From positions 62,001 to 126,000 of the forward strand of contig CANRYS010000010.1 of assembly GCA_947644305.1 (NCBI GenBank): DNA of 64,000 bases, written 5' to 3'. Every line of letters starts with the position of its first letter. Position 1 is the stretch's first letter. The stretch comes from an uncultured Roseburia sp. (GTDB taxonomy: Bacteria > Bacillota > Clostridia > Lachnospirales > Lachnospiraceae). A model generated the notes under the pieces. It did not search any database. It saw only the letters and a list, made by a program, of their open reading frames with translations, and was not told the origin of the DNA. Both the position numbers and the translations under genes were made by a program. Below are positions 37,338 through 59,435 of this stretch, one piece after another.

Positions 37338-39041
37338 TTACTTCACTTTATCTTTCTGAGCAATTTGAGCATCATATAAGCGCTTAAAGTACTCACAATT
37401 CTCAAGCAAATATGCAAACTCTCCTTGAGCAACAACTTTTCCATTCTGAAAAACCACTATATGTTCAAATTCATTGACATAATTAAGGCGATGTACAACA
37501 CAAATTAGTGTCTTTTTCACTGCATATTTCATAACCTGTCCCATCACCAGTTTTTCATTAATATTGTCAATTGCAGAAGTTGCCTCATCAAGCATAATAA
37601 CATCAACATTGCTTAGCAAAATTCGTGCAATAGCTAATCGTTGCCTTTCTCCCCCTGACAAACTTATTCCTCGTTCACCAAGTTGTGTTTCTAATTTATC
37701 CGGCATAGTTGAAAGCATTTCATCTAAACCAACAAGTGATAGCACGCTATAAATTTCATCATCAGAGATCCGTCTGTTAAAAACAATGTTTTCCCGTAAT
37801 GACCCATCAAAAATTGGTGATTCTTGCGAAACATAACCAATTCTTTTATAAAAGGACTCTAAATTCACTTTTGAAATATCATAATCTGCAAATTCAATTT
37901 TTCCTTCATTTGAATGAATTAATCCCATGAGCATTTTCATAATAGTAGATTTCCCGGAGCCGCTTTCGCCAACAAAAGCAATCTTGCTCTTTCCTTTTAA
38001 CTTTAACGAAATATTGTCTACTACCTTTGCTTTATCATACACATAAGAAACATCACGTAAAATAATATCACCTTTTAGTGAACTCACTGAATCTCCCTTA
38101 CAAAGTAATTCTTCCTCTTTTTTATCCAGAAAGTCACTATATCTTTTATACGATATTTTATCCATCTTATACTGTACAAATATAACATTAAAAATAGCAA
38201 TTGGGGTATATGCATTATCCACTAACGTAATTAGCGCAATAATTTCTCCTATGGACACCGCTTTAGATAGATAGCCCCATACAATAATCGCAATTTTTAA
38301 AAAAGTAATTAGTAATGCAAAAATCGCAAAAAAAGCTTCATGTATCAACTGCATCTTTGTTTTCGAAGATACTATTTCTCGTTTTGACTTTTCTGCACAG
38401 GATATCTCTTCTCTAAACTTACGATTAACTCGAAAAACAGGCATCTCCATAAAACCACGCACTAAAATATGGTTTAATTTTTCTTCATTTAAAAGCACTT
38501 TTTCCTTAATATTATAGAGTACCTTTAATAAAAGATGAGTAACAAAGAAAACAACAACATACCCCGCAAGAATAACAACAGCAATTTGAGGATTTATGGA
38601 AAATATAAAAAAGAGACTAAAAAAAATAGCTGGCAATAATTCACGGATTATTCTAAGATAAAATCCAAAAACCATTTCTTTTCCAGCATTAGCTCCATTC
38701 TCAATTCGCTGAATAAGTTCACCTGTTCCAATTTTCTGATATTCAACATAATCAATGCGACTCACTTTCTTTAATGCCAATAGTTTTATATCTAAATATA
38801 AATTATTGGACAACTTTTGTGCTGGATACTCATCAACATAATTAAGTATGCATAATAATATCAACACTCCTGCATACAAGATAATGGTGTTCAAATCAAC
38901 TGTTCCATTTGAAAAGTGATCAATAAGTATTTCATAATAACTTGCACTATAAGCAGACAAAAAAGCAAGTATAACGCCAATTAATGTATAAACAAAAACC
39001 AACTTTCTGTTTCCATTTACAATTTCTTTTAACCCTAACAT
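37338..39041 (-). CDS. ABC exporter, fused permease-ATPase
   Basis: 567 residues. Six membrane helices span residues 15-300; the nucleotide-binding domain has GESGSGKST (Walker A), a Q-loop region, LSGGERQRLAIAR and VIMLDEATSAID. As a half-transporter it should work as a dimer and export a substrate across the membrane. It is the only transporter in the island, so it is the likely exporter or self-protection pump of the cluster product. GGAGTATAGTT precedes the ATG, and a leader peptide with competing helices lies upstream (39081-39181). Confidence 0.9.
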   Translation of the reverse strand: MLGLKEIVNGNRKLVFVYTLIGVILAFLSAYSASYYEILIDHFSNGTVDLNTIILYAGVLILLCILNYVDEYPAQKLSNNLYLDIKLLALKKVSRIDYVEYQKIGTGELIQRIENGANAGKEMVFGFYLRIIRELLPAIFFSLFFIFSINPQIAVVILAGYVVVFFVTHLLLKVLYNIKEKVLLNEEKLNHILVRGFMEMPVFRVNRKFREEISCAEKSKREIVSSKTKMQLIHEAFFAIFALLITFLKIAIIVWGYLSKAVSIGEIIALITLVDNAYTPIAIFNVIFVQYKMDKISYKRYSDFLDKKEEELLCKGDSVSSLKGDIILRDVSYVYDKAKVVDNISLKLKGKSKIAFVGESGSGKSTIMKMLMGLIHSNEGKIEFADYDISKVNLESFYKRIGYVSQESPIFDGSLRENIVFNRRISDDEIYSVLSLVGLDEMLSTMPDKLETQLGERGISLSGGERQRLAIARILLSNVDVIMLDEATSAIDNINEKLVMGQVMKYAVKKTLICVVHRLNYVNEFEHIVVFQNGKVVAQGEFAYLLENCEYFKRLYDAQIAQKDKVK

Positions 39042-39084
39042 AACTATACTCCTGTTCTAATTTAATATTTTACCTAGATTAGTT

Positions 39085-39156
39085 CAGTACAGTTACAACT
39101 GTTAACAACCATTACTCAGTACAATCTGTTAACAGATTATGACAACTGTACTGAGT
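39085..39156 (-). promoter_or_regulatory. Attenuator-like competing helices upstream of the ABC exporter
   Basis: Several helices share sequence. ACTCAGTACA (39114-39123) pairs with TGTACTGAGT (39147-39156) around the perfect palindrome ATCTGTTAACAGAT (39124-39137). CAGTACAGTT (39085-39094) pairs perfectly with AACTGTACTG (39144-39153). ACAGTT/AACTGT also forms a local hairpin at 39089-39102. The first two pairings use the same segment, so they exclude each other, and that segment lies in the coding part of the leader peptide. Confidence 0.6.
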
Positions 39157-39181
39157 AACTATCTCGAAAAACACCTAACAT
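39137..39181 (-). CDS. 14-codon leader peptide of the ABC exporter
   Basis: MLGVFRDSYSVQLS, with a very strong ribosome site (AGGAGGGG at 39187-39194) five bases before the ATG. Its last codons overlap the switch segment of the downstream helices. Ribosome stalling here would free the alternative pairing, as in erm-type or msr-type regulation. Too short to show codon bias. Confidence 0.5.
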   Translation of the reverse strand: MLGVFRDSYSVQLS

Positions 39182-39699: not shown

Positions 39700-40644
39700 T
39701 CATTTCAACATTTCTATCATATAGTTCTTTTTATTTTTCCTCAACGTATAGTTATTGAATTTGACAACAGAACCACCATAACTTCTTTTATAATAATTAA
39801 TATTCGCTTCTTTCTCTCCTTCTTTAGCATTTACATCATAACCAGCAAAATCATAATATCGAATTCCATCTTCTATCAATTTAGCAAGAATATTACAATC
39901 TAAAAAAGTTCCTGCATTAAGATGCATGTATTTTTTACTGTTAGTGTTATATCTTGATTCAAAAACTTCTCCAAACACAAATGCCATAATCCCACTAATC
40001 ACTTGTCCTCTAAACTTACATACATATAATTCAACAAATTGTTGTTTACTCATCGCAACAATTTCCGGGATCAATTTTTTGTTATCTAATAAGGAATTAT
40101 TATTGCTTATCATACATTGTAAAAACAAGTCCAAATTGTGCTTTCCTTGTTCAAACACAAATTCATTATCCTTACGCAATACCTTCCTTACAATTCTTCG
40201 CCGATTCTGATTCATCATTGCCATTTGTTTTTCAAAACTACTTTCAATCTTTAGCATCATAGTATGGTATGCGCTATTCTGAACGCATAATTCATTTAAT
40301 TGTCTACCACCTTTTAATTCCAAAATGTTGCTTGAAAAAAAAATATTTAAATCATACCGCTCAAGTACCTCTACAAAAAAATAATTTAACGCTCCAATAC
40401 CATTTTCGTAACATATAGGTCCTCGATGAATGTAAATACCAAAAGAGTGAATAATTACTACTGCTCTTAATAATACATTCCCTTTCTCATCTTCAACCAA
40501 AGCATATTTTGTTTTATAACCACAAAGTTTCTTGCCTTCTGCAAATGCAGTACTTTGATAAAAGGAAGGATTCTTCCCCAACAAAACACCTTCATCCCAT
40601 TTTTTGCAATCAGCTATATTCTCACATTCTGAATATTTGTACAT
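39700..40644 (-). CDS. FemAB/GNAT-like aminoacyl- or acyltransferase
   Basis: 314 residues with a FemAB-type double-GNAT outline: PSFYQSTAF near the start, NRRRIVRKVLRKDNEFVFEQG in the middle, then YNTNSKKYMHLNAGTFLDCNIL and YYDFAGYDVNAKEGE near the end, the region where FemX-type proteins show DFxG. Such enzymes add aminoacyl groups from aminoacyl-tRNA, or acyl groups, to amines. GGAGGAGAT precedes the start. In this cluster it could add an amino acid to a diaminopropionate-derived amine (inference). Confidence 0.65.
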   Translation of the reverse strand: MYKYSECENIADCKKWDEGVLLGKNPSFYQSTAFAEGKKLCGYKTKYALVEDEKGNVLLRAVVIIHSFGIYIHRGPICYENGIGALNYFFVEVLERYDLNIFFSSNILELKGGRQLNELCVQNSAYHTMMLKIESSFEKQMAMMNQNRRRIVRKVLRKDNEFVFEQGKHNLDLFLQCMISNNNSLLDNKKLIPEIVAMSKQQFVELYVCKFRGQVISGIMAFVFGEVFESRYNTNSKKYMHLNAGTFLDCNILAKLIEDGIRYYDFAGYDVNAKEGEKEANINYYKRSYGGSVVKFNNYTLRKNKKNYMIEMLK

Positions 40645-40654
40645 ATCTCCTCCA

Positions 40655-41242
40655 TCACAAAATACCTATTATTTTATGCAACTGCATACTTAAACGATAT
40701 TCAGGATTATCACTTATTAACTCTAACGCAGTTTGAATATTTTGAATTTCATTACTTTTAGGTTGTAAATAGACATACCTGCTAGAAACATTCTCCTTAA
40801 TACTTTCTATATACTGCAACATCTTATCTTTGTCCTTATCAACAACAAACTTGAGTTCATCTACCTGTTGTTGCTCCAAATTATCCGTCTTGGGACTACA
40901 TGTTACCCAATCAAATTCGCAATCCGGCTTCAACAACCCATTTGTTTCTAATGCAACAGTATATCCATTCTTTTGTAATTTTTTTACTAACTTATTTAGC
41001 TTTTGAATTGTAGGCTCCCCTCCTGTAATAACAATAAAATTTGACGGTGATAATCGCTTTACCTTTTTGTAAATTTCTTCCTCCGTCATAATTATATACT
41101 CATCAAAGTGTTCATCACAAAAAGAACAACGTGGCATCATATTGCAGCCTGCCAGGCGGATGAATATTGCATTTCTACCCACATTGTACCCTTCTCCCTG
41201 TATAGATTTAAATATTCCATTTTTTACAACTCTATATTGCAT
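40655..41242 (-). CDS. queE: 7-carboxy-7-deazaguanine synthase (radical SAM)
   Basis: 195 residues. SIQGEG is the QueE signature, followed by cluster cysteines at about 33, 39 and 42 (C-x5-C-x2-C, wider than the common C-x3-C-x2-C) and ITGGEPT for SAM binding, with ALETNG and SPKT downstream. QueE turns 6-carboxytetrahydropterin into 7-carboxy-7-deazaguanine. It follows the carbamoyltransferase gene with no gap, the start being preceded by AAAGGAG. It is the third of four preQ0 enzymes in this island. Confidence 0.9.
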   Translation of the reverse strand: MQYRVVKNGIFKSIQGEGYNVGRNAIFIRLAGCNMMPRCSFCDEHFDEYIIMTEEEIYKKVKRLSPSNFIVITGGEPTIQKLNKLVKKLQKNGYTVALETNGLLKPDCEFDWVTCSPKTDNLEQQQVDELKFVVDKDKDKMLQYIESIKENVSSRYVYLQPKSNEIQNIQTALELISDNPEYRLSMQLHKIIGIL

Positions 41243-42976
41243 CTAATTATTCTCCTTTTCAATAATAATTTCATTGTTAAATACTACCCAGTCAATTCTT
41301 TTTGACTTAAAATAACTTAGTACTTGTTCTAATGAATAAACAATAGGGGTTGCTAAGTTAAATGACGTATTAATTACAATAGAATTTCCTATTTGCTTCT
41401 TCAACTCTCTTAATTGGTGATAAAATGATATATTACTCGACTCTGTAACATATTGTGGTCTAAACGATTTATCAATATGTATGACAGCTCCAAATCTATC
41501 TTCAATAGAATTATCTAGCTGATAAGCAATATTCATATATCTTCCAAACTGCTTATTCTTATCATTTAATATTCTGTAATCTGTTTCTAGAAGACTAGGA
41601 CCTAACGGTCTTCCTAACTCTCTTTGCTTTACCTCCATATTAATGAAATCCAACTTCTCCTTATTAGGCAGACTTATTATCGAACGGTTTCCTAATGCTC
41701 TAGGTCCCCATTCGTTTCTTCCTTGAAAAATACCAACAACCTTACCCTGACACAACGCTTTTGCAATATCGTATGATGCATCACTTTTAATTCTGAATTT
41801 CAAATGATATTTCTCACAAAATTTTACTATTTCATCGCTTGTATATTCAATTCCTAAATAAGGCGAGAATTCTTTATCCATTTTACTAACTGCACCCATT
41901 CTATATGCTTGTTCTAGAGCTGCTCCTAATGCTACTCCCGAATCTCCTGCTGCCGGTTGAACAAATATCTTTTCAACTTCAGGCATTTCCAATATTTTTC
42001 CATTCAAAGTACAGTTAAGTGCCACACCTCCCGAAAGACAAACATTAACTAGATTTTCTTTAATCATCCATTTTCTTATCTCATTAGTTACTTTATGCTC
42101 TAAAACATATTGTACTGATGCGGCCAAATCCTTATACTTTTTATCAATATTATAGTAAGAATCTATCTTTTTTTTGTTTCGTTTAATTCCAAGTTTATTC
42201 AAAAAAATGGATAACCACGTTTTAATAAGACTATCTTGGACAACCCTTGCCTCATTTGATATTATAAACCTAGAAACTTTTCTATACTCATCTACAAACT
42301 CATTTGTCATCTCTATCGAATTTTCACCATACATTTTCATAATTTCATTAGCATAGATTGGTTTTCCATAAGCAGCTAACCCCATCGTTTTCCCTGATTC
42401 ATAATTTTGAAAACCAACGACAATATTAGTTGCCTCAAACAAAAAACCAAACGATGATTCCATTGGCGCACTATATAACGGAATTAGTTCACCATTTTTG
42501 GATTTCCAAATACTAAAAGATTCCGTTTCTCCATTTCCATCAATAACAACACTCAATGCTTCATTGAAACCTGAAACTCTATAACTTGAAGCCGCATGAG
42601 CCAAATGGTGATTAATACATATCGTGTCAATATGCGAAATATCAGATGTATTAAATAAATTACATACGATATCTCTTAGTTCAACTTTTTCACCTTTTTT
42701 CTCTCCCAACAAAACATAATCCCAACCGAACACAACATAATCAATATCCTGCACTGTTAAACTATTACTATTCAACAAATCATTAATAGCCAATTTAGGA
42801 AAACTATCATATGCGCACTTATTTCCACTACTTTTCTCTTCTTCTATGCAACCAACAATGTTATAACGATTTTCGAACACTTCAACAAGGGAAACAGCAG
42901 CATCGTGACTATCTTGATTCCACCCGTTAATCCCTAAAATATATTTTCCTTTTTTATTATATTTTGCTATCTTCAT
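41243..42976 (-). CDS. Carbamoyltransferase, NodU/CmcH/TobZ family
   Basis: 577 residues, the usual two-domain length. The N-terminal Kae1-like domain has GINGWNQDSHDAAVS, HHLAHAASSY (metal-binding histidines) and GNGETESFS; the C-terminal part has CLSGGVALNC, FQGRNEWGPRALGNRSI and VINTSFNLATP. Family members use carbamoyl phosphate and ATP to carbamoylate a hydroxyl of a sugar or antibiotic. The start overlaps the glycosyltransferase end by 20 bases behind GAGGAGAT, indicating coupling. Confidence 0.92.
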   Translation of the reverse strand: MKIAKYNKKGKYILGINGWNQDSHDAAVSLVEVFENRYNIVGCIEEEKSSGNKCAYDSFPKLAINDLLNSNSLTVQDIDYVVFGWDYVLLGEKKGEKVELRDIVCNLFNTSDISHIDTICINHHLAHAASSYRVSGFNEALSVVIDGNGETESFSIWKSKNGELIPLYSAPMESSFGFLFEATNIVVGFQNYESGKTMGLAAYGKPIYANEIMKMYGENSIEMTNEFVDEYRKVSRFIISNEARVVQDSLIKTWLSIFLNKLGIKRNKKKIDSYYNIDKKYKDLAASVQYVLEHKVTNEIRKWMIKENLVNVCLSGGVALNCTLNGKILEMPEVEKIFVQPAAGDSGVALGAALEQAYRMGAVSKMDKEFSPYLGIEYTSDEIVKFCEKYHLKFRIKSDASYDIAKALCQGKVVGIFQGRNEWGPRALGNRSIISLPNKEKLDFINMEVKQRELGRPLGPSLLETDYRILNDKNKQFGRYMNIAYQLDNSIEDRFGAVIHIDKSFRPQYVTESSNISFYHQLRELKKQIGNSIVINTSFNLATPIVYSLEQVLSYFKSKRIDWVVFNNEIIIEKENN

Positions 42977-43847
42977 ATTTTATCTCCTCTATCTTCATTG
43001 ATTTTTCAAACGGAAGCGTCTCCTTAAATAAAATTGGCAAATGGACTTGTATTCCACATGCAATCTGTTGTAAAATTATCCAAAGATCTGAATATAAACG
43101 CCAGACCAATTTAATTTTTTCGCGTTTTGCCCGATTGTGATTTTGCAAAATTTCTCTACAAGGTCTCCACTCCTCTTGTGTTCTTTTAATTCTTATTCCT
43201 TTACCACAACCATACAATAAAGCATCTTTCAAATCCTTTATGACACCAATATTATCATGATAAAAAAATGCATCCTCATATACAATTTTGGCATCCGAAT
43301 TCAAAACTCTATATGCAAACTCCGCATCCGAACACCATACTGTATCAACCGCAAACACATAATCCCCACTTATTTTCTTAAATATTTTTTTTGAAAAAAG
43401 AATAACTGGTATGTATGGTTCTTTTGTAAATGAGGTATTGATTCGTCTTGCTTCCACTACGAAACTACTCTTAGCCTTATATACTAATCTTGCTTTGACC
43501 AAATCTGCATTATTATCTATCATGCTTTCTATCATTCTTTTTATTGATCCTTTTTCACAAATAACATCAGAATCTATAAAAAGCAAATTATCATAAGTTG
43601 CTTCTTTCACACCACAATTGTATAAGTATCCCAAATTGCAAATTTTTTCATTTATTATCTTCACGCTAAACTTTTGGGAATAATTATCAAGGATGTATTG
43701 ACTTTGCTTAAGCACCTCCTTTGTTGGTCTATTGAGTATAATTAAAAGTTCAATTTTTAAGTTTTCACTATTGCAACAATCAATGCTTTCAATCATGTTT
43801 ATCATTCGCAAATCACTATGATTAGGCACTAAAATAGATATATTCAT
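42957..43847 (-). CDS. Family 2 glycosyltransferase
   Basis: 296 residues with the GT-A layout: ISILVPNHSD at the N terminus, LLFIDSDVICEKGS carrying the metal-binding acidic motif, and VDTVWCSDAEFAYRVL late in the domain. No membrane helix is evident. GGAGGAAAAAG precedes the ATG. With the carbamoyltransferase and QueE it forms a three-gene overlapping run, so it probably adds a sugar to the pathway product. Donor and acceptor are unknown. Confidence 0.85.
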   Translation of the reverse strand: MNISILVPNHSDLRMINMIESIDCCNSENLKIELLIILNRPTKEVLKQSQYILDNYSQKFSVKIINEKICNLGYLYNCGVKEATYDNLLFIDSDVICEKGSIKRMIESMIDNNADLVKARLVYKAKSSFVVEARRINTSFTKEPYIPVILFSKKIFKKISGDYVFAVDTVWCSDAEFAYRVLNSDAKIVYEDAFFYHDNIGVIKDLKDALLYGCGKGIRIKRTQEEWRPCREILQNHNRAKREKIKLVWRLYSDLWIILQQIACGIQVHLPILFKETLPFEKSMKIEEIKYEDSKI

Positions 43848-44048: not shown

Positions 44049-44762
44049 TTACCATCCACTTGGAATTCTAATCCATGGTTCATCACACTGTTTACATATT
44101 TCTGGACAATTATTGGTATCCAAAATTCGTTTTCTTACATTGTTTATTATATCTTTATATTCTTTTCCGGCTATAATATCAGAAAATCCGGTTTCCAAAA
44201 TATTCCCTAGTTTACAACTATTGTTCCAGTCCCGGCAACAAAGATGTATATTCCCATAGTAATCAATTGGAATTTCAAAACATACTCTTTTGCACCCAAA
44301 CTTATTTTCTTCTTGACGATTATATATTTGAGCACGATCATCTAACTCCCATTGCTCTATCTCAATCTGCCGATATTCTTTTTGTAATTTTTTATAAAAA
44401 GGTAATTTTTCCTTTTTATAACACGAAATCACAACTTTAGCAAACAAGTCTAGAATTTCATCATTTTCTTTTAATAACTCCCCATTTGTCCATAAAAGAT
44501 ACCTTTCGTGCGGTTTTTTTGAAATCACCTGCATAATCCTTTCCCTATACAGCAATGGCTCATTATAAAAGTGGAATGCATAATAGCCTTCAAAATTCAG
44601 TTTTTGGCATTCCGAAATCACATTGGCAATTACACTTGGTGTAATAGTCCCAAATTGAGTCACTAGATATTTTCGGTGATTTATGGGGCATTTATGATGT
44701 TCCATTCTTAAATTACATTCATTTCCTATTTCGAATGAAATAATCTTAATTTTTTTTAGCAT
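44049..44762 (-). CDS. Radical SAM/SPASM-like protein with atypical cluster motif
   Basis: 237 residues. FEIGNECNLRMEHHKCPINH near the N terminus gives only two cysteines (about 16 and 25) instead of C-x3-C-x2-C, while AFHFYNEPLL matches the SAM-binding strand of the canonical neighbour at 54312-55202 (IAFHQYNEPLL). A SPASM-like region has CKRVCFEIPIDYYGNIHLCCRD and ends with CPEICKQC. It is either a divergent radical SAM enzyme or one that keeps only auxiliary clusters. It is six bases downstream of the carrier protein gene. Confidence 0.7.
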   Translation of the reverse strand: MLKKIKIISFEIGNECNLRMEHHKCPINHRKYLVTQFGTITPSVIANVISECQKLNFEGYYAFHFYNEPLLYRERIMQVISKKPHERYLLWTNGELLKENDEILDLFAKVVISCYKKEKLPFYKKLQKEYRQIEIEQWELDDRAQIYNRQEENKFGCKRVCFEIPIDYYGNIHLCCRDWNNSCKLGNILETGFSDIIAGKEYKDIINNVRKRILDTNNCPEICKQCDEPWIRIPSGW

Positions 44763-44767
44763 AAATT

Positions 44768-44998
44768 TTATTTTCCTTTCAATAATAAAGCTACATATGT
44801 AACAAGTTCATCAATCGATTGAAAACTATCATTTCCAATGTATTCATCCTCAAACTCTATTTCAAAGATTTCCTCTATATGAACAATTAAGTTCATATAG
44901 TCAAAAGAGTCCATTTCCAATTGATTCTCGTCCACTAATTCAATTTCGATTTCTTTAAATACTCTTTTTATCTGTCTGCGTATTTCTTCATTGTTCAT
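44768..44998 (-). CDS. Acyl/peptidyl carrier protein of the island
   Basis: 76 residues with the serine near 31 in EMDSFDYMNLIVHIEEIF. AAGGAGGTTAGTT precedes the ATG. It differs from all carriers of the left region and is probably loaded by the adenylation enzyme at 47232-48785, so that an amino acid is held as a thioester. Confidence 0.88.
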   Translation of the reverse strand: MNNEEIRRQIKRVFKEIEIELVDENQLEMDSFDYMNLIVHIEEIFEIEFEDEYIGNDSFQSIDELVTYVALLLKGK

Positions 44999-45094
44999 AA
45001 CTAACCTCCTTCAACTAAACAATTATATTATTTAAGCAACCACACTTAAATTGTTATTGATAACATTGCCTATTAATATATATTAATAGCACCT

Positions 45095-46117
45095 TTAATA
45101 TTGTGACCATTCTGTATTTACTGTTAATACACGTTTATTTTTAAGTAAACTTCCATGCAATTCTTGCAACGCAGCTGCATATGAAGAGCACCCCGTAAAT
45201 CCAGTATGTATCTTATTGCTTTCTAGACGCTTGTATGCTAGTGCAATTTCACTATCTTTCACAGTACAACAACCATATATCCCAGTTAGCAACATTGGTA
45301 AGGCTATCAAAGAAAGCTTTATACACTTCAAGCCATTAGCAATTGTCTCGCCGCCTTGTGCCTGCATTTCTCTATTGGCTTGTATAGATAAGTATAAAGA
45401 ATTGTAACCACATGGCTCAACCGAAATCACTTTAGTTTTGTGCCAAAAAATTTTGCAAAACATTATACATGACAATGCTAATCCACCTACACCAACTGGA
45501 AGAAAAATATAGTCAAAATGCTCATTCCTTAATTCATAAAACATTGTACTATATCCCATAGAAACATCATGAGACATCCTTCTGTCATTTTTGTCTACTG
45601 CAACATCTAAAAGCACAATGTATTTATCGCAATTTTGAAATTTTTTAGCAGCCAAGACACACTCATCATAATTCCCATCATATAAGATTACTTTTGAATT
45701 ATTTCTTTTTGCACTATTACAGTAAAAAGAAGGTGTATCTTTAGGAAAAATGACTGAGCATTGGATTTCTAGATCTTTACACAATTTTGCAACGGCCACA
45801 CCATAATTTCCATCTGAAGCTGTAATAATCTCTATTTCCGAATTTTTCAAATATCTTTTCAAGGAAATATAATCTTTTACATTAGATGAAATTCGTTGAA
45901 AATATTTAAAAAGTGAATAACTCGCTCCTAATATTTTAAACGAATTACATTTTAATCGTTCAGACTCATCCTTGATAAATATGTTATCTGATTCTCTTAA
46001 TATAGTTTCTTTATAATTAGGATAACTACAATGAAACCTATATACATCTTCGAAATCATTCACTGCAATTTTATGTAGCATTTCGCTTGTCCATTTTTTG
46101 TTTTTTATAAAATCCAA
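45095..46117 (-). CDS. PLP enzyme, diaminopropionate ammonia-lyase-like
   Basis: 340 residues starting at a TTG behind AAAGGAAATATAA. The PLP lysine is near 61 in IKDESERLKCNSFKILGASY, closely like DpaL; TASDGNYGVAVA binds the substrate carboxylate and PVGVGGLALS the phosphate. DpaL splits 2,3-diaminopropionate to pyruvate and ammonia. Next to SbnA and SbnB it may eliminate a Dap-derived amine, make a dehydro product, or keep the Dap pool low. It is shorter than the usual 400 residues. Confidence 0.8.
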   Translation of the reverse strand: MDFIKNKKWTSEMLHKIAVNDFEDVYRFHCSYPNYKETILRESDNIFIKDESERLKCNSFKILGASYSLFKYFQRISSNVKDYISLKRYLKNSEIEIITASDGNYGVAVAKLCKDLEIQCSVIFPKDTPSFYCNSAKRNNSKVILYDGNYDECVLAAKKFQNCDKYIVLLDVAVDKNDRRMSHDVSMGYSTMFYELRNEHFDYIFLPVGVGGLALSCIMFCKIFWHKTKVISVEPCGYNSLYLSIQANREMQAQGGETIANGLKCIKLSLIALPMLLTGIYGCCTVKDSEIALAYKRLESNKIHTGFTGCSSYAAALQELHGSLLKNKRVLTVNTEWSQY

Positions 46118-46132
46118 ATTATATTTCCTTTC

Positions 46133-47269
46133 TCAAATATTTCTTGGTATTATCTTATACGATACAGGATCTTCTAAACCAAGTTCTTTGAAGGCAGCAT
46201 ACCTTGCCCTGCAGTCAACACACTCACCACATTGAATACGTCTTTGCGAATCTTGTGATTCTTTATGACATGTCCATGTGTTTTCAAAATCAACTCCCAA
46301 AGCATCTCCCAACTGAATTGTTTCTTTCTTCCCTCCGATTTTTTTCAAAATCGGATTTAGATATATTTCTTTAGTTCCATACTGCATACTTATTAACTCA
46401 TTCAAGGCATCATAATATAATGAAGAATTATCTGGTGAAATTGCATCATCATTTTGACTTCCTGTCACTATCATATTTATATTGTCAGCTTGGCACATGC
46501 ACAAAGCTATACTAATAAATATTGTATTTCTAAAGGGAACATACTCTAGTTCCTTATTTTCAACTGTCAAATTAATCTCTCGAGACAACAAACCACATTT
46601 ATTTGATATTGTTTCAAAAAATGAATATAAATTTATTTTAATAAAATGTAAATTTTTTCTTTTTTCTTCTCGTAATATTCTTTTACATGAAGATTCTTCC
46701 TCCACAACATTACGCTGTCCATAATCAAAAAACAATAATGATATGTCCTTCGCAAATAAAGTTGACAATTTATACGCAACACTACAATCAAGTCCACCAG
46801 AATATAACACCAAAACCTTATTTGAACCAGTTCTTAAATCAGGTGAATTCGTGAAATCTTTTACTCGTTTTTCTGCCAACATATTCATGTATTGAAAACA
46901 TATTCTAGATTTAGTCCCATAAAAAATCACTTTAGCAATTTTTTTAATATAGTCATCAACAACTTTTGTATCACAAAAAAACTTCCTAGAGTCACATACC
47001 AATAATAACATTTCCGATTGGTAATACTCTGCGATAGCACACGCAAAAGAAACTCGCAAAAAAATATTCTTCTTATACTGCTGAATATCATAAGGAATAT
47101 CAATACATAAAAAACTTACTGCTTTACTCCTTATATACTCTTCCACTTTTGCATTGTCCGAAAAAAACAAATATAATACATCTTCAAAATCATTAACAAC
47201 TAAATCGATTTGCTGTTTTGTATATTCTGAGTCAATTAATATGCATTTCTCGTATTTCTGCTTTAACAT
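46133..47269 (-). CDS. queC: 7-cyano-7-deazaguanine synthase with N-terminal extension
   Basis: 378 residues; typical QueC is about 230. Residues 150-378 are QueC: PP-loop LYSGGLDCSVA (about 157-162), FDYGQRN, PFRNTIFISIA, TGSQNDD and the zinc site TCHKE...QCGECVDCRARYAAF. It converts 7-carboxy-7-deazaguanine to preQ0 with ATP and ammonia. Residues 1-145 are an extra domain with alternating strands and helices that I do not recognise. It overlaps the adenylation gene by 38 bases. Confidence 0.92.
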   Translation of the reverse strand: MLKQKYEKCILIDSEYTKQQIDLVVNDFEDVLYLFFSDNAKVEEYIRSKAVSFLCIDIPYDIQQYKKNIFLRVSFACAIAEYYQSEMLLLVCDSRKFFCDTKVVDDYIKKIAKVIFYGTKSRICFQYMNMLAEKRVKDFTNSPDLRTGSNKVLVLYSGGLDCSVAYKLSTLFAKDISLLFFDYGQRNVVEEESSCKRILREEKRKNLHFIKINLYSFFETISNKCGLLSREINLTVENKELEYVPFRNTIFISIALCMCQADNINMIVTGSQNDDAISPDNSSLYYDALNELISMQYGTKEIYLNPILKKIGGKKETIQLGDALGVDFENTWTCHKESQDSQRRIQCGECVDCRARYAAFKELGLEDPVSYKIIPRNI

Positions 47270-48785
47270 ATCTTTCTCTAAGTTCCTTTCTATCTATTTT
47301 TCCATTATGGTTTCGTCCAAAAGTATCAATATAAATATATTCTTTGGGACATTTATACTTAACAAGTTTCTTTTTACATAATGTTGCTAGTTCTACTTCT
47401 ATTTTTTCTTTAGTATAAGTATTGTAAAAACATACAAGTCTGTCTTTTATTAGCAAAATACAGCATTCTTTAACCATTCTATTTTGCTCTACAACATTTT
47501 GTATTTCGCCAAGTTCTACACGATATCCTTTTATCTTTACCTGATCATCTTTCCTTCCAACAAAAAAGATATTATTCATTTCATCCTTTTTGGCAAGATC
47601 ACCCGTATAATAAACCATCTCATTGCCAGTATTCAAAAAAGGATGTTTTCTTAATTGATTAGATGTTTTTTCCTCATCATTCCAATAACCAGGGAAAACA
47701 GTATCCCCTCTAATAACCAATTCACCAACCTCGCCATTTTTTGCAAGTTTACCCTCACGATTAACAACAAAAATTTCAACATTATTAATTGGAGTACCAA
47801 TTGCTATTCCATCCTCATTGTCCAAATCCTCCGCACTAATAAAATGAAATGTCGAAGCAGCAAATGTTTCTGTTGTTCCATAACCATTAATAAAATTTAT
47901 ATGAGGATATTCCTCCATAAGAAATTTTATAACACTTACCGGACATTTTTCATATCCAATGTATATATCATGTAAAGCGGACAAATCATATTTTTTCACT
48001 ACATTAATATTTGATTTAAGCAGTAAAAGCAGTGCCGGACCACATCCAAAATTCGTTATTCTTTTTTCTTCTAAAAACTTCAAAAAACTCTTTAATCCTA
48101 CATTTCGATTTTGAATATATACTTGGCCTCCACTAATAACACTTGGAAGAACTTCTGTCAAAAATGGATCAAACGCAATCGGTGTACGACATAAACTTCT
48201 AACAAGTTTACCATGATAATGATTACAAACAACATGCTCCAAAAAAGTAATAATCGCCTTATGATTTACCATAACGCCTTTGGGATGTCCCGTTGTACCC
48301 GATGTAAAGATAATATATACAATATCTTTAGATATTATTTTTCTTTTTTCAAAAACACCGTCTAAATCCTTATAACTTTCAAAAGTATAATGTTCTTCCT
48401 GTTTCGTTCCATACACAACCTTGTGTCCTTTATACATTTCGAAATTATGTTCATATTTCTTATCGTAAATGCAAACAGAAGGGCTAACTAGTTGTAATAC
48501 ATAATCAACATTTTCTTTTTGCATATTTTCATCAAGAGGAACATAAATTGCACCAGTTTTTATAATTCCAAATATAGCAACAATAGTTTCAATATTTAGT
48601 TCCAACATAATAATAACTCTTTCACCCTTTTTTACACCTAATCTTATTAAAAATTCTGCAAATTTATTAGACTCCCTTTCTAGCTCTGAATGATTCATGA
48701 TTTCATTTTCGTAATTAAGAAGATTATTACACGAATTTCTTGTTTCATATCTTCTTAATAACGTATCCAACGTACTATTGCTCAT
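47232..48785 (-). CDS. Stand-alone amino acid adenylation enzyme (NRPS A-domain)
   Basis: 517 residues with all core motifs: FTSGTTGHPKG, TPIAFDPFLTEV, NGYGTTETFA, YYTGDL, GRKDDQVKIKGYRVELGEI and NGKIDRKEL with the catalytic lysine. The Asp in AFDPF is the A4 residue that holds an alpha-amino group, so an amino acid substrate, possibly L-Dap, is likely. No condensation or thioesterase domain is attached. It should load the carrier at 44768-44998. GAGGTGCAAAG precedes the ATG, inside the end of queD. Confidence 0.9.
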   Translation of the reverse strand: MSNSTLDTLLRRYETRNSCNNLLNYENEIMNHSELERESNKFAEFLIRLGVKKGERVIIMLELNIETIVAIFGIIKTGAIYVPLDENMQKENVDYVLQLVSPSVCIYDKKYEHNFEMYKGHKVVYGTKQEEHYTFESYKDLDGVFEKRKIISKDIVYIIFTSGTTGHPKGVMVNHKAIITFLEHVVCNHYHGKLVRSLCRTPIAFDPFLTEVLPSVISGGQVYIQNRNVGLKSFLKFLEEKRITNFGCGPALLLLLKSNINVVKKYDLSALHDIYIGYEKCPVSVIKFLMEEYPHINFINGYGTTETFAASTFHFISAEDLDNEDGIAIGTPINNVEIFVVNREGKLAKNGEVGELVIRGDTVFPGYWNDEEKTSNQLRKHPFLNTGNEMVYYTGDLAKKDEMNNIFFVGRKDDQVKIKGYRVELGEIQNVVEQNRMVKECCILLIKDRLVCFYNTYTKEKIEVELATLCKKKLVKYKCPKEYIYIDTFGRNHNGKIDRKELRERYVKAEIREMHIN

Positions 48786-49179
48786 CTTTGCACCTCACTT
48801 TACAATATGATGTATCTGTCTCATATAACTTAATTTCTTCCAAATTGATATCTTCCGTAGAAAAAGCCTTCTGTAGTTTATTCACAATTTCTATGCACAT
48901 ATTTTCAGCTGTTGGTACCTTGTCCATCAATTCATTGATAAATTGATGATCGTAATAATTTGTGACATTCTTATTGATTATCTCTTTTAATCTTTTGAAA
49001 TTAATAACCATTCCGTCATTTTTAATATCTCCCGAAACAGATACTTCTAATTTGTAGTTATGTCCATGTAAATTGGAACATTTGCCAAATAGCTTTTCAT
49101 TTTCTTCATCGCCCTTTTCCGGCAAACACAAACAATGCGCAGCCTCAAATTTTGTACTAATTGTCGTATAAATTTTCAT
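48775..49179 (-). CDS. queD: 6-carboxytetrahydropterin synthase
   Basis: About 134 residues from the ATG at 49179, which AAAGGAA precedes by nine bases; an ATG at 49188 is too close to the site. Zinc histidines are near 15 (FEAAHCL), 38 and 40 (NLHGHNY), with the catalytic Cys near 34 as in QueD (C-x3-HGH). YYDHQFIN and PTAENMC follow. It makes 6-carboxytetrahydropterin from dihydroneopterin triphosphate. Confidence 0.92.
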   Translation of the reverse strand: MKIYTTISTKFEAAHCLCLPEKGDEENEKLFGKCSNLHGHNYKLEVSVSGDIKNDGMVINFKRLKEIINKNVTNYYDHQFINELMDKVPTAENMCIEIVNKLQKAFSTEDINLEEIKLYETDTSYCKVRCKDEQ

Positions 49180-49184
49180 CTTCT

Positions 49185-50111
49185 TCATTTCCTTTCATCA
49201 ATTAATTTAAGCCAATCTTTGTTATATAAAGTATCTATGTAACGATCTCCTCTATCTGCGAAAATCATTACTACTTTTTTCCCTAATAATTTGGGGTTAT
49301 TTTTTCTTAAATATTGCTTGTAACCCTCATAAACCATTCCAGATGAGCCACCCACAAAGAAAAATTTTTCTTTTAATTCTTCGCAAGCATTTACAACATT
49401 CTTTTCTTTAGTTACTATTATGTCGTCTATAAATGCGTTCTCTACATTTGGAGGATGAATACTTGACCCCGCTCCTGGAATGTGTCTTTCAACTTCTTTT
49501 GTTCCAAAAATTTGTGATCCTTCTATATCCACCGCTACAATTAGGGGATTTCTATTACTTTTAGCAAAATATTGCGACACTCCAGCTATACAACCACATG
49601 AACTCACTGGAATAAATATAGCATCAACATTATCTGTCTGTTGTTCAATTTCTTCCGCCAATCCACTATATGCTCGAACCACTTCTGGATTATTATATTG
49701 ATTTACCCAATATAAATTGTTTTCGTCAGCCATCTTTTTTACGATTTTTAACCTTGTTTTTAAATATCCTCCTGTATCATCTTTTTCGTTTACCATTACT
49801 ATATAAGCATCTAGTTTCTCTAGCAGTCGCAAGTTAACAGGTAAAATATTGGGATCAGTAACACAAATAAATTTTGTATGATTCACTTTACATGCACTAG
49901 CCAATGCAATTGCCATATTTCCAGATGACGACTCAATAACTCCATTATATTCACTAATGCTGCCATCAATATTCATTCTTTCAAGGAGCAGATTCGCTGG
50001 TCTATCTTTCATGCTTCCTGTAATATTGTTTCCCTCTAATTTTGCATACAAATTAACATGATTACCATCATTAATTTGAATCAATGGAGTTTTTACTAAA
50101 CGTTCTTTCAT
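49185..50111 (-). CDS. sbnA: N-(2-amino-2-carboxyethyl)-L-glutamate synthase, SbnA type
   Basis: 308 residues, a cysteine-synthase-fold PLP enzyme. The PLP lysine is near 35 in GSMKDRPANLLL, the substrate loop is ESSSGNMAIALA and the phosphate loop PVSSCGCIAGVS. Together with the SbnB homologue directly upstream it matches the staphyloferrin B pair in which SbnA joins O-phospho-L-serine and glutamate. It overlaps sbnB by 41 bases and starts behind GAGGAAATTG. Confidence 0.9.
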   Translation of the reverse strand: MKERLVKTPLIQINDGNHVNLYAKLEGNNITGSMKDRPANLLLERMNIDGSISEYNGVIESSSGNMAIALASACKVNHTKFICVTDPNILPVNLRLLEKLDAYIVMVNEKDDTGGYLKTRLKIVKKMADENNLYWVNQYNNPEVVRAYSGLAEEIEQQTDNVDAIFIPVSSCGCIAGVSQYFAKSNRNPLIVAVDIEGSQIFGTKEVERHIPGAGSSIHPPNVENAFIDDIIVTKEKNVVNACEELKEKFFFVGGSSGMVYEGYKQYLRKNNPKLLGKKVVMIFADRGDRYIDTLYNKDWLKLIDERK

Positions 50112-51036
50112 TTTTCAATTTCCTCATATATATATCATAAGCTAAATTTCCTATACAAATATCAAAAAGCGCCATTCCCATTGTGTTTACAAAATAAGCT
50201 CTATTCTCTCCTTTAGGCACCTTCATATCAAGAAACTCTTCAATATTTATAGTATCCTCTCTTATAAGTTTGTTTTTGCGTGACAAATGATATATATTGG
50301 TTTCTTCGCGATTAACTTCATCCCAATCATCAACAACAGTAACTGTATTCGTCAAATCAAATGACTCAACACAAAAATCTCGAAGAGATACATTCAACGT
50401 CAGACAATTCAATCTGGGTGCCTCAGTTAAATATGGTATCACTGTATTTGTTGCCAAAACTAAAATATCTGCTTGATTATATACTTCTTTCCAACTAGTT
50501 TCAACAATAACATCACTCTGTTCTTTCATTATATTTTTGTCATATATATGAATCTCTGAAATCTGATCTTTTAATAAATGGCAAAAATATTCCTTATGCA
50601 TTTTTCCTATAGGACCATACCCAATTATGCCGAGCACATACTTCTTTCTATCTGTTAATTGAATATATTTATCTAATAGCACAGTGGAAAGTGCTGCTGT
50701 TCTAATAATGCTAATGCACGATGCGTTAAATATACAAAACGGTATTCCTGTAGAAACACTATTAAGAATTGTCAAGCAATGTGCTCGAGGAATATTCTTC
50801 TCCAAATTATCAGGAAAACTGGAAATCCATTTAATACCACAAACATTCTTACTTCCTCCTACATATGCAGGCATTGCAATAATTCGATTTCTTTTATCCG
50901 GAAATTTCAAATATGGTTTTATGGGTTGATTATATTCTCCTCGTTTTTTTATGCTAATGGCATCTCGAATAGCCGATAAACACTCGTCCTTATCTGACAA
51001 CAATTCTTTACATTGTTCATTTTCAATATATATCAC
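50071..51036 (-). CDS. sbnB: N-(2-amino-2-carboxyethyl)-L-glutamate dehydrogenase, SbnB type
   Basis: 321 residues starting at GTG behind AGGAGGAATATT. It has the ornithine-cyclodeaminase fold: substrate residues in the QPIKPYLKFP and NVCGIKWISSFP region, and the NAD site GIIGYGPIGKMH. SbnB oxidatively splits the SbnA product to L-2,3-diaminopropionate and 2-oxoglutarate. The gene order folE-sbnB-sbnA-queD interleaves the two precursor pathways, so they are made together. Confidence 0.9.
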   Translation of the reverse strand: MIYIENEQCKELLSDKDECLSAIRDAISIKKRGEYNQPIKPYLKFPDKRNRIIAMPAYVGGSKNVCGIKWISSFPDNLEKNIPRAHCLTILNSVSTGIPFCIFNASCISIIRTAALSTVLLDKYIQLTDRKKYVLGIIGYGPIGKMHKEYFCHLLKDQISEIHIYDKNIMKEQSDVIVETSWKEVYNQADILVLATNTVIPYLTEAPRLNCLTLNVSLRDFCVESFDLTNTVTVVDDWDEVNREETNIYHLSRKNKLIREDTINIEEFLDMKVPKGENRAYFVNTMGMALFDICIGNLAYDIYMRKLKNERTFSKNSIDSN

Positions 51037-51049
51037 AATATTCCTCCTC

Positions 51050-51583
51050 TTACTGAACCATTTTCAAAAATTTATCCACATCTTCACTTTTCATATTTCC
51101 ACAAATTGAGGTAGTGATCGTTGTGGAATTTTGTTTTTCAACACCTCGCATCATCATACATAAATGCTTCGCTTCCATTTTAACTATCACAGAATCAGCA
51201 CCCAATATTTCTTTTATCTCTATAGCAATTTCTTCCGTTAGTCTTTCTTGGATTTGTAATCGTCGTGCAAACATATCAACAACTCTAGGTATTTTACTTA
51301 ATCCAATTATTTTCCCATTTGGAATATAGCCAACTGAACATGTCCCATAAAAAGGAAGCATATGATGTTCACATAAACTATAGAATTCAACATTTTTCAC
51401 AATAACCATATCTTTTTTTTGTGTAGAAAAAATTGCCGAATTCACAACTTTATTTATGTCCATTGTATAACCTTTTGTCAAAAATTCCATTGCTACACTT
51501 GCACGTTTTGGTGTTTTTATTAACCCTTCGCGTTTTGGATTTTCTCCTATTTTTTCTAATATCTCTTTATATAATTTCTCCAT
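51050..51583 (-). CDS. folE: GTP cyclohydrolase I
   Basis: 177 residues. Zinc ligands are Cys near 71 and His near 74 (YSLCEHHMLPF) and Cys near 143 (HLCMMMRGVEKQNS), with GKIIGLSKIPR between. It opens GTP to dihydroneopterin triphosphate, the entry to both folate and 7-deazaguanine. Being the first gene of a run with queD and queC, it probably serves preQ0. AAGGGAC precedes the ATG. Confidence 0.93.
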   Translation of the reverse strand: MEKLYKEILEKIGENPKREGLIKTPKRASVAMEFLTKGYTMDINKVVNSAIFSTQKKDMVIVKNVEFYSLCEHHMLPFYGTCSVGYIPNGKIIGLSKIPRVVDMFARRLQIQERLTEEIAIEIKEILGADSVIVKMEAKHLCMMMRGVEKQNSTTITTSICGNMKSEDVDKFLKMVQ

Positions 51584-52713: not shown

Positions 52714-54216
52714 CTATTTTGTAAAAAACTCAATAATGTTCAAAAATAAACTTTCTTCCTCATTTCTGATTTTTACTAATTTTCCTTTTATTTTTTCTTT
52801 GTTTTCGCTCTTACTACTAAAAGCTTCTTTCATGCACAACTGCATTATTTTTTTTGATTCATTACAAATATACAACGCATTTGTTACAATAGAATCAAAT
52901 TTTTGACTTTTGATATTCTTCTTTTCTTTTAGATAGAGCAACCTTCTATACATAATCTCTTTATGTTCAAAGAAAAGATAACTCATTCTAATGTCTTCAA
53001 TAAAAGATTGTAATCCATCTTTTTTAAGAATAATATTGTATAGGTCCATTCCATAAACATATGAATCAGAATGTCGAATAATATCGGTTTTAACAACCGA
53101 TTCTCCTTGCCTATAGCTTTCTAGATTTCTCTTAAATATTTCTATCGAAAACTCATATGCGATATTTTCAGGCGTAAATGCTATTGACATTACATGACTA
53201 TCCTTCTTTTGTATCTGGGCAATAAAATCACCATATCCAATACTATCTATTATTAGTTTACCTTTCTCTATATAAATAACATTGAATTTTTCCTTTTCAC
53301 TGTCATACCCATATATCAAGCTTCTATGATAATAATGAGTTATACTATAGCATACAGAATTTGGTAAGAAAAAGTAATCTATTTCCATTTCGAGATAGAC
53401 ACCATTACTAATCTTTCCAGTTATATATGATATAATTGAAAGTCCCATCTTTTTAATTGTACTTACACTTTCGATAGAATAATCAAAAAAATAATCTGCA
53501 GTAAAATAATTATCATTTTTCATGATTCCTGAATCATAATCCAATGTTATTTCTTTTCCAATACAATCATATTTAAGTTGCAAATTATTTTGAAAGAGAA
53601 AGTCATAATAACAATTATCATATAGTTTCACAAAAATACCTATATATAACTCAGCTACATTTTCTTTTTCATACACTTTCTCTTCTATTTTATTACAATT
53701 TGCAAGATAACACTCTAACTTATTGCCCTCCTTATTTATCCGTAAACTATTTTTTTCTTCTGAGATGTCAGTTGTCACCTCATACTGTGTACCCAAATCC
53801 TTGATATATATTTTACCATTATTAAATTGTCCAAATTCAAGAACACTATTGTTTTTCCAATCTTCATCAATCATCCGATAAATTCCTATACCAATACACC
53901 CCCACGGATTAGTGTATTGTTGATATTCAATTTGCAAATCCATTGAATAATTTAATCCTACCTTACGAAATAACACCCCATTCATTCCATAATTGTAGTC
54001 ATTTTTTGAAAAAAAAGTTATTCTTTCATCTTCAATTCTAACATCTATATTTTCTCTTTTTTGACTCCACTTCCCCACACTTGTTTCATCTATTTTTAAA
54101 CCTGCCACTTTTTTTCCAGTAAAAAATGGACTCTTTAAAATCGCCTGCGGATACGAATAATAGGTAAATGAATACATATCAACATTGTCCGTTATTGGCA
54201 AAATTTTACTACTCAT
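52714..54216 (-). CDS. Unrecognised 500-residue protein of the island
   Basis: About 500 residues from the ATG at 54216, preceded by GAGGAGAAAAAAT (an upstream in-frame start at 54234 overlaps it). Residues 60-210 look like a beta-rich jelly-roll (WGCIGIGIYRM, ELYIGIFVKLYDN). The middle has FFLPNSVCYSITHYYHRSLIYGYDSEKEKFNVIYIEKG, cut here as FLPNSVCYSI and YGYDSEKEKFNV, a pattern seen in some peptide-natural-product biosynthesis proteins. The C-terminal third is helical (SFIEDIRMSYLFFEHKEIM). No signal peptide. Its place upstream of the folE run suggests a biosynthetic role, but I do not know the family. Confidence 0.6.
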   Translation of the reverse strand: MSSKILPITDNVDMYSFTYYSYPQAILKSPFFTGKKVAGLKIDETSVGKWSQKRENIDVRIEDERITFFSKNDYNYGMNGVLFRKVGLNYSMDLQIEYQQYTNPWGCIGIGIYRMIDEDWKNNSVLEFGQFNNGKIYIKDLGTQYEVTTDISEEKNSLRINKEGNKLECYLANCNKIEEKVYEKENVAELYIGIFVKLYDNCYYDFLFQNNLQLKYDCIGKEITLDYDSGIMKNDNYFTADYFFDYSIESVSTIKKMGLSIISYITGKISNGVYLEMEIDYFFLPNSVCYSITHYYHRSLIYGYDSEKEKFNVIYIEKGKLIIDSIGYGDFIAQIQKKDSHVMSIAFTPENIAYEFSIEIFKRNLESYRQGESVVKTDIIRHSDSYVYGMDLYNIILKKDGLQSFIEDIRMSYLFFEHKEIMYRRLLYLKEKKNIKSQKFDSIVTNALYICNESKKIMQLCMKEAFSSKSENKEKIKGKLVKIRNEEESLFLNIIEFFTK

Positions 54217-54311
54217 ATTTTTTCTCCTCATCAAAAAATATTCTTTTCAAACAAGCTCTGAACACTCCTTAGCATTAATGCTCTAACCTATTAATTACAC
54301 TTTATAATTTC

Positions 54312-55202
54312 TTAATTATTCCACACACAATTCTGGCAATTCTTCAATTCAACTCCTGTTTGTAATACTTTTCCAATTTCTTTGCACTTACTGAAAAACA
54401 ATTCAAACATGTCTGTTTCAACAATATTACCAAGCAAATACTCTTCAGACTCTTTTATGCCATCACAGCAATCCCAACAAAAATAAGCATTACCTCTATA
54501 AGAAATATGCATAGAATGTAGCATTGACTGACAAAAATACGAACATGGATTTTCATTACAGTTATAATATTTTGTTTCAACGCTTCCCATTCGATTGGAT
54601 CCACTTTTAGAAAAATCTGTTGATTCAATATATGTAATAGTAGGATACTTTTTCATATTCCAAAAATTATACTGTTTAATATTAAAACCTAATCTTCTTA
54701 ATTTGCTAGGTACAAGCGCAACTTTACTCTCTGATATAAACAATGATTTTCTTCCATGCAACCCAATTTTTCTTTTCATTGCCTTTATTTCCTTAATTGC
54801 GTCATCTTTGTTCCATTTCTCCATATGCCTTGATATATGAAACTCATCAATTCCATCTCTTTTCAAATCTTTATACAGCGATTTTGTCAACAAGTCACCA
54901 TTTGTATAAAGAACCATTTTAGCTTTAGGAAGATATTTTTTCACTAATTTCATACAAACCAGAAGATGATTTAACTCCAATAAAGGTTCATTATATTGAT
55001 GAAATGCAATACCTCCTTGAAAATTAATACTCTTCAATTCTATTAATATTTTTTTTACTATTGACAAAGATATCAATTCACCTTTACCATTTCGTTTTGA
55101 AGATGGGCAATAACTACAATGACGATTGCATTTAGATGAAATCTCTATCTCAACATAGTTAACAAAATTAAAAAAAAGCTTTCTTTTTACATATTCTTTC
55201 AT
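54312..55202 (-). CDS. Radical SAM/SPASM protein
   Basis: 296 residues with the canonical cluster motif at about 25-32 (CNRHCSYC), SAM-binding IAFHQYNEPLL, YTNGDLL and a SPASM-type Cys-rich end (HISYRGNAYFCWDCCDG, then CQNC). Such proteins often modify peptides or carrier-bound substrates. TTGGAGAGAATAA precedes the ATG. Two short peptides with a strong ribosome site lie directly upstream, so a peptide substrate should be considered. Confidence 0.88.
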   Translation of the reverse strand: MKEYVKRKLFFNFVNYVEIEISSKCNRHCSYCPSSKRNGKGELISLSIVKKILIELKSINFQGGIAFHQYNEPLLELNHLLVCMKLVKKYLPKAKMVLYTNGDLLTKSLYKDLKRDGIDEFHISRHMEKWNKDDAIKEIKAMKRKIGLHGRKSLFISESKVALVPSKLRRLGFNIKQYNFWNMKKYPTITYIESTDFSKSGSNRMGSVETKYYNCNENPCSYFCQSMLHSMHISYRGNAYFCWDCCDGIKESEEYLLGNIVETDMFELFFSKCKEIGKVLQTGVELKNCQNCVWNN

Positions 55203-58757: not shown

Positions 58758-58817
58758 TTTTCTCTCTCCTTCTTGTTTTCCTGTCTGTATCCATGTCGTA
58801 TATTATACACGCTGTGA

Positions 58818-59420: not shown

Positions 59421-59435
59421 GTTAAATGATCCCAT

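Follow-up and report, generated by a model that had tools for sequence, protein, structure and literature searches.

To our knowledge, the 7-deazapurine natural products described so far come from actinomycetes. Their toyocamycin, tubercidin and huimycin clusters hold dedicated copies of FolE, QueD and QueE, and those for toyocamycin and huimycin hold queC too; ToyE-ToyI (roles known in part) form the toyocamycin salvage set. In the published accounts consulted, the gene immediately downstream of huiG in the huimycin cluster encodes a carbamoyltransferase, a glycosyltransferase is also part of that cluster, and genes for L-2,3-diaminopropionate (L-Dap) are described for none of the three clusters (PMC7439116). 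A different use of the QueC family is found in type IV CBASS (cyclic oligonucleotide-based antiphage signaling system), where Cap9 joins 7-carboxy-7-deazaguanine (CDG) to the N-terminal amine of its partner in place of ammonia (PMC13279940). Here we describe a locus in a 64,000-nucleotide stretch of an uncultured Roseburia sp. genome (contig CANRYS010000010.1, positions 62,001 to 126,000; the whole stretch is called the window), in which an island of 16 genes at 37338-55202, all on the minus strand, was delimited by open reading frame (ORF) calling and Pfam and NCBIfam searches. Judged by its genes, the island is best read as a specialized-metabolite cluster joining 7-deazaguanine and Dap genes, and the main new finding is that a QueC-like enzyme with altered residues sits in an apparent small-molecule cluster. 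An earlier model-made note on this DNA (the original prediction) had listed FolE, Que- and Sbn-like proteins, an adenylation domain (A-domain), a carrier, a DpaL-like enzyme, transferases, radical SAM proteins and an exporter, all of which were borne out by Pfam or NCBIfam matches and the ORFs; its view that the combination is new agrees with the open-licence literature searched, where no publication joining 7-deazaguanine with diaminopropionate was found. The genes at the center of the argument, in the order of transcription, are:

51050..51583, minus strand: FolE, GTP cyclohydrolase I, second copy in the genome (TIGR00063, 225.9 bits, over the cut-off of 181.6)
50071..51036, minus strand: SbnB-like protein, second L-Dap enzyme (TIGR03944, 257.5 bits; cut-off 326.9)
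49185..50111, minus strand: SbnA-like protein, first L-Dap enzyme (TIGR03945, 317.8 bits; cut-off 349.95)
48775..49188, minus strand: QueD-like 6-carboxytetrahydropterin synthase (PTPS, 116.4 bits; TIGR03367, 88.3; cut-off 89.25)
47232..48785, minus strand: stand-alone amino-acid adenylation enzyme (TIGR01733, 321 bits, over the cut-off of 317.4)
46133..47269, minus strand: QueC-like ATP-dependent enzyme, 378 residues (Pfam QueC at residues 151-363, 116.7 bits, over cut-off)
45095..46117, minus strand: DpaL-like fold-type II pyridoxal-phosphate enzyme, 340 residues (PALP, 136 bits; NF006058, 136.9; cut-off 276; E 6.4e-40)
40655..41242, minus strand: QueE-like radical SAM enzyme leading to CDG (TIGR04508, 126.3; cut-off 240)

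From FolE to the DpaL-like gene, distances between neighbors range from -41 to +15 bases (FolE-SbnB +13, SbnB-SbnA -41, SbnA-QueD -4, QueD-A-domain -11, A-domain-QueC -38, QueC-DpaL +15), so the que and sbn genes are interleaved and partly overlapping in an operon-like run. As in toyocamycin-type clusters, the FolE, QueD and QueE set for CDG is present, with QueD and QueE below their NCBIfam cut-offs; residues 9-194 of the QueE-like protein align with a solved 7-carboxy-7-deazaguanine synthase (4njg, E 5.2e-23), and it keeps 36 of the 46 columns that are near-invariant among 23 relatives. The adjoining SbnA-like and SbnB-like proteins have the two L-Dap families as their best NCBIfam matches, both under cut-off. 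Like the huimycin cluster, the island has a glycosyltransferase; unlike the toyocamycin, tubercidin and huimycin clusters as described in those accounts, it has L-Dap genes, its QueC-like protein is altered, and it holds in addition a free A-domain, a carrier, and DpaL-like, FemAB-like and SPASM proteins.

The QueC-like protein carries about 145 additional N-terminal residues ahead of the QueC domain and scores 83.8 bits against the canonical QueC model TIGR00364, under its cut-off of 150.3. Its residues were compared with those of 36 homologs, found at 36 of 37 loci from related genomes (one locus gave no match); where a count below reads 35 of 36, the exception is a single distant row (L028). 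Retained are SGGxD, Y183, Q185, E190, VPFRN (R247 and N248), D280 and all four zinc cysteines (C334, C347, C350 and C353), so that the canonical ATP loop, VPxRN motif and zinc site are all in place, the loop reading SGGLDC with its final Ser replaced by Cys (S162C; Ser in 36/36 homologs). Against the same homologs, H187 has become Asn (His in 35/36; YGQRNVVE for the canonical YxQxHxxE), G278 has become Ser (Gly in 35/36), the Cys of YPDC has become Asn (C281N, giving SPDN; Cys in 35/36), the Tyr of YPDC is gone through a shortened loop (Tyr in 35/36), and the Tyr that follows the first zinc Cys has become His (Y335H, giving TCH; Tyr in 35/36). The protein thus departs from canonical QueC at the His of YxQxHxxE, at YPDC and at the Tyr after the first zinc Cys. 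In Escherichia coli QueC, the variants Y35A, R99A, Y131A (YPDC) and Y189A (zinc region) were unable to support queuosine (PMC13329287), and the Tyr of YPDC stacks on the base while the Asp two positions further along recognizes N1 and N2 (PMC13279940). Counterparts of Y35 and R99 are retained here as Y183 and R247, and those of Y131 and Y189 are lost. Because the counterparts of two essential tyrosines are gone, the QueC-like protein likely no longer makes preQ0, and a last reaction different from nitrile formation is the likelier case. It may be amide ligation on CDG, to which the retained adenylation site, zinc site and Asp, together with the neighboring genes, point. As to the claim that all four enzymes from GTP to preQ0 are encoded here, the four families are present, but preQ0 is probably not the end point.

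The remaining genes of the island, which would serve carrier loading, transfer, tailoring and export, are, again as transcribed:

54312..55202, minus strand: radical SAM/SPASM protein whose sequence shows the usual CxxxCxxC (Radical_SAM, E 2.7e-10)
52714..54234, minus strand: 506-residue protein of a BtrH_N-related family, itself without a Pfam match and not named in the original prediction
44768..44998, minus strand: free acyl/peptidyl carrier (NCBIfam acyl carrier models, best E 3.8e-8; DS motif in the sequence)
44049..44762, minus strand: SPASM protein, 237 residues, with an atypical N-terminal motif (SPASM, E 7.1e-9; no Radical_SAM match)
42957..43847, minus strand: family 2 glycosyltransferase (GT2; Glycos_transf_2, E 5.1e-10)
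41243..42976, minus strand: TobZ-like O-carbamoyltransferase (Carbam_trans_N and _C)
39700..40644, minus strand: FemAB/GNAT-like transferase (Acetyltransf_6, E 3.4e-6; FemAB, E 8.2e-6; TIGR03019, E 7.2e-8, far below cut-off)
37338..39041, minus strand: ABC exporter, a permease-ATPase fusion, for probable product export (ABC_tran, 109.3 bits; ABC_membrane, 47.7 bits)

Transcription would thus run from the radical SAM/SPASM and 506-residue genes across a gap of 1130 bases to FolE, SbnB, SbnA, QueD, the A-domain and the QueC-like gene, and on through the DpaL-like, carrier, SPASM, GT2, carbamoyltransferase, QueE and FemAB-like genes, the last of which is separated from the ABC exporter by 658 bases. 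The island has a G+C content of 30.7%, compared with 40.9% in the window at 1-34500 and 57288-64000; among nine further loci elsewhere in the genome, some of which overlap, it is 42.5-47.3% in seven and about 36% in the two at a remnant on contig C13 described below. Transposase genes flank the island on both sides:

36125..37167, plus strand: IS66-type transposase split into two ORFs (DDE_Tnp_IS66 in both)
55628..56772, plus strand: IS3-type transposase ORF pair (HTH_Tnp_1 and rve)

The low G+C content and the flanking transposases are most naturally read as a sign that the island was probably acquired from elsewhere. Within the window, Rfam gave no match at gathering scores, and promoter-like sites were not above those in shuffled sequences.

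We put at roughly 0.45, a little short of even, the probability that the island is an acquired cluster for an exported conjugate, in which the QueC-like enzyme couples CDG to an amine, most likely Dap, before the conjugate is tailored and exported. In the scheme that we infer from gene families, for substrates, step order and product alike, FolE, QueD and QueE would convert GTP to CDG, and SbnA and SbnB would supply L-Dap. Like QueC and Cap9, the altered QueC-like enzyme would use ATP to adenylate the carboxylate of CDG, and the adenylated CDG would be captured by an amine, most likely that of Dap, either free or carrier-bound, giving an amino acid 7-deazaguanine-7-carboxamide and not preQ0. 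The A-domain, whose closest solved match is linear gramicidin synthetase, would load an amino acid onto the free carrier (no Pfam model matched the carrier at E ≤ 0.001), from which the FemAB-like protein, the BtrH-related protein or both would transfer it. GT2 would attach a sugar and the TobZ-like enzyme would O-carbamoylate it; the nearest solved structure to the latter is TobZ itself (E 5.4e-70, residues 12-564), an enzyme that carbamoylates an aminoglycoside. The DpaL-like and radical SAM/SPASM proteins would tailor the conjugate and the ABC protein would export it. For the DpaL-like protein the closest solved match is DpaL (5ygr), with the NxFK and DGN stretches aligned, which we take to have catalytic roles in DpaL; at 340 residues and far under the family cut-off, lyase activity on Dap may be one option only. 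Set beside TobZ (nebramycin 5') and BtrH (butirosin), the island has a TobZ-like protein and one whose family includes BtrH_N-matching members, with no aminocyclitol genes among its Pfam matches.

The 506-residue protein matched nothing in PDB by sequence up to E 10 and gave one match, at E 0.16, as a profile. Of 12 proteins in its family, four carry a BtrH_N match at E ≤ 0.05 (the best at E 3.1e-5); the island protein is not among them. No Cys stands in the invariant columns of the family alignment, which comprised 11 of 19 loci besides that of the window (the rest being short, overlapping, stop-containing or not taken). Homologs lie near an A-domain at two loci (L057 and L058) and near ABC genes at four (L056, L057, L059 and L060). 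BtrH is an acyl carrier protein:aminoglycoside acyltransferase (PMC10318531), and the BtrH_N relatives and neighboring genes suggest that the 506-residue protein is possibly a carrier-to-acceptor aminoacyl transferase. Given the 1130-base gap, membership of the pathway is uncertain for both this gene and its upstream neighbor, the radical SAM gene. Elsewhere in the same genome, a broken radical SAM and 506-residue pair lies behind two ABC exporter genes (L054:11748-13446, on contig G000:C13); this C13 remnant is without que or sbn genes. In another genome (L058:1-12000), a 506-residue homolog stands beside an A-domain/carrier fusion, and phosphopantetheinyl transferase-like, BtrH-like and amino-shikimate/kanosamine-like ORFs were seen there by eye. 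The 237-residue SPASM protein at 44049-44762 has C-x5-H-x2-C-P in place of CxxxCxxC, as does its homolog in another genome of the family (L144); because the pattern is shared, such proteins may form a genuine unusual subfamily.

Several observations weigh against coupling of CDG to an amine by the QueC-like enzyme. Cap9, a proven amine-conjugating ligase of the QueC family, keeps the Tyr, Asp and Cys (PMC13329287, PMC13279940), so the changes in the island enzyme speak against preQ0 more than they speak for amide ligation; its losses resemble more those of QatC, whose reaction is not settled (PMC13279940). CDG itself might not be the substrate, and the amine partner is a guess from the gene neighborhood. 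Of the four positions found essential in E. coli QueC, Y35 and R99 persist. Changes at near-invariant columns are not confined to the QueC-like protein (QueC-like 15/39, FolE 38/87, QueE 10/46 and QueD 1/5, counted from 35 QueC, 21 FolE, 23 QueE and 10 QueD relatives with the distant row L028 and short matches left out), so that the overall change rate of the QueC-like protein is unexceptional beside FolE and above those of QueE and QueD; what counts is where the changes fall. QueD, QueE, QueC, SbnA and SbnB each score below the cut-off of their own NCBIfam model. In a maximum-likelihood tree the QueC-like row sits on a long branch apart from the canonical rows, a placement that the program warns is unsure. 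An AlphaFold single-sequence model of the QueC-like protein was unusable (mean predicted local distance difference test score 36.2), and a second, likewise single-sequence, reached 36.0. Finally, the searches set out below found no second copy of the cluster, hence no support from co-conservation.

More tentative than the conjugation pathway itself is a broader proposal, which we hold to be less likely than not: that a small-molecule amide ligase of the QueC family, joining CDG and diaminopropionate, founds a class of glycosylated, carbamoylated aminoacyl-deazaguanines, with Cap9, QatC and the island enzyme as parallel reuses of one adenylating step. If true, nucleobase-amine conjugation would extend from a defense protein to small molecules, and the altered QueC-like enzyme is one concrete enzyme for testing small-molecule conjugation of CDG.

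Among the alternatives, the one that fares best, though we consider it unlikely, is a pathway of the toyocamycin or huimycin type, in which the QueC-like protein still makes preQ0 and Dap joins separately, by way of the A-domain and carrier, as an aminoacyl side group. FolE, QueD- and QueE-like proteins and a QueC-family protein are all in the island, the SGGxD and VPFRN motifs and zinc cysteines are retained, and huimycin offers a precedent in being made from preQ0 with a dedicated glycosyltransferase (PMC7439116). Set against this are the loss of two essential tyrosines (PMC13329287) and of the YPDC Cys, the extra N-terminal part, and the shortfall against TIGR00364. Salvage genes of the ToyE-ToyI type were absent from the Pfam matches of the 16 island proteins.

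Less probable again is that two unrelated pathways, a Dap peptide or siderophore pathway and a 7-deazaguanine pathway, lie side by side after merging by insertion. The adjoining SbnA/SbnB pair recalls that of staphyloferrin B, but the island has no siderophore synthetase family among its Pfam matches. For conserved co-occurrence, searches with the QueC-like protein covered 145 related genomes (E ≤ 0.001) and 391 genomes of the class (E ≤ 1e-12), the two sets overlapping. No listed match outside its own genome starts before residue 122 of 378 in either set, and none of the 38 same-genus genomes among the 145 (several of them incomplete) matches the N-terminal part. A scan of genome contigs with the QueC-like protein, which reaches close relatives only, returned 11 pattern stretches and no relative; a degenerate scan for the changed motifs, which would miss other motif spellings, returned 15 stretches, with QueC in 0/15 by tblastn. 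SbnB-family matches are common (93/397 and 59/398 genomes at E ≤ 1e-30 in overlapping sets, own genome included). All 20 matches of at least 180 bits outside the own genome were taken, four of the 20 regions ending at contig ends; at tblastn E ≤ 1e-4, SbnB was recovered in 18 of them and SbnA in one (L127), and QueC, QueD, QueE or FolE in none. Conversely, flanks of at most about 1.5 kb on either side of the 37 QueC loci showed no SbnA or SbnB. Besides the genome of the window, 2/351 genomes matched the 237-residue SPASM protein, and their neighborhoods held no other island gene, only radical SAM matches at the same place. In plasmids, tblastn matches to the QueC-like, DpaL-like and SbnB proteins were all below 60% identity, no record covered 80% of the QueC-like query, and the 237-residue SPASM, 506-residue and FemAB proteins had no match; neither plasmids nor phages held a close match to the island DNA, and three scans of viral contigs gave no relative. 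Because no second copy was found, the que-sbn linkage rests on one island; free separation of que and sbn genes among genomes is neither shown nor ruled out, the pair having been seen once. A merger by insertion would fit a single known island and the one other SbnA-SbnB pair among the 20 regions (L127), which is without que genes. It sits poorly with a run in which FolE, SbnB, SbnA, QueD, the A-domain and the QueC-like gene alternate and overlap at uniformly low G+C.

A role in macromolecule modification or defense, with deazaguanine attached to protein (as by Cap9 and, as proposed, QatC) or to DNA (dpd-like), appears very improbable. Cap9 does conjugate CDG to a protein amine (PMC13279940, PMC11996544), and Cap9 and QatC share with the island enzyme the QueC domain, ATP loop and zinc cysteines. 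Cap9, however, is a short QueC domain that keeps YxDC and has a CD-NTase gene nearby, whereas the island enzyme has 378 residues and SPDN, and no CD-NTase or TGT-family gene was found among the Pfam matches of the 16 island proteins. QatC, like the island enzyme, is extended at its N terminus and altered in the residues that recognize the base, but loses the Asp that the island enzyme keeps; QatC matches are weak and limited to residues 327-373 or 330-373 (model NF041925, 30.9 bits at residues 327-373; cut-off 280). PADLOC, applied to 6 of the 16 proteins, reported no models other than those of QueC, QatC and viperin. The Pfam matches included neither a QatA-type ATPase nor a TatD-like DNase (QatB has no Pfam model and was not searched for), and there is no DpdA nearby, the genome's only TGT match being the tgt on contig C6. 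The island enzyme, unlike Cap9 and QatC, sits in a metabolite cluster, and an exporter, GT2 and carbamoyltransferase fit defense badly.

The genome, estimated to be 99.99% complete, also bears on queuosine. Single copies of tgt and queA lie on C6 and C13, C15 carries a transporter of the QueT family, and C11 (G000:C11) holds a second folE. The statement that queF, tgt and queA are missing is correct for the island and the window; genome-wide, only queF was not found, the one QueF-model match (30.3 bits, nominally over the Pfam cut-off) being discounted because it is a 58-position match inside the C11 folE. The island queC is the genome's only full-length PF06508 match (118.8 bits); a second match (23.6 bits; cut-off 22), spanning positions 1-40 of 210, falls in a 376-residue frame on C2 that probably encodes a different enzyme sharing this ATP loop. 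With tgt, queA, QueT and a second folE elsewhere and queF not found, queuosine is best explained by salvage, a role that QueT presumably fits, and no route is known that would take preQ0 made by the island to preQ1. That the que genes merely supply tRNA queuosine is therefore hardly credible, despite tgt and queA in the genome and an island queC that is its sole full-length copy, given the altered QueC-like active site and an N-terminal part matched in none of the same-genus genomes; the original prediction that queuosine is not the evident end point is supported, and service of the island to tRNA queuosine is unlikely.

Outside the island, the window holds a large locus at 451-26729 with A-domain, β-ketoacyl-acyl carrier protein synthase III (KAS III), short-chain dehydrogenase-like, acyltransferase-like and sulfotransferase ORFs. 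Its A-domain/KAS III pair at 6238-8848 (Pfam) is seemingly repeated at 18238-21069 on the other strand, and an integrase-like ORF lies between the two pairs at 14198-15193 (both by eye). The ORF at 17363-18226, inside the same locus, matches Antibiotic_NAT, the aminoglycoside 3-N-acetyltransferase family, at E 5.9e-34.

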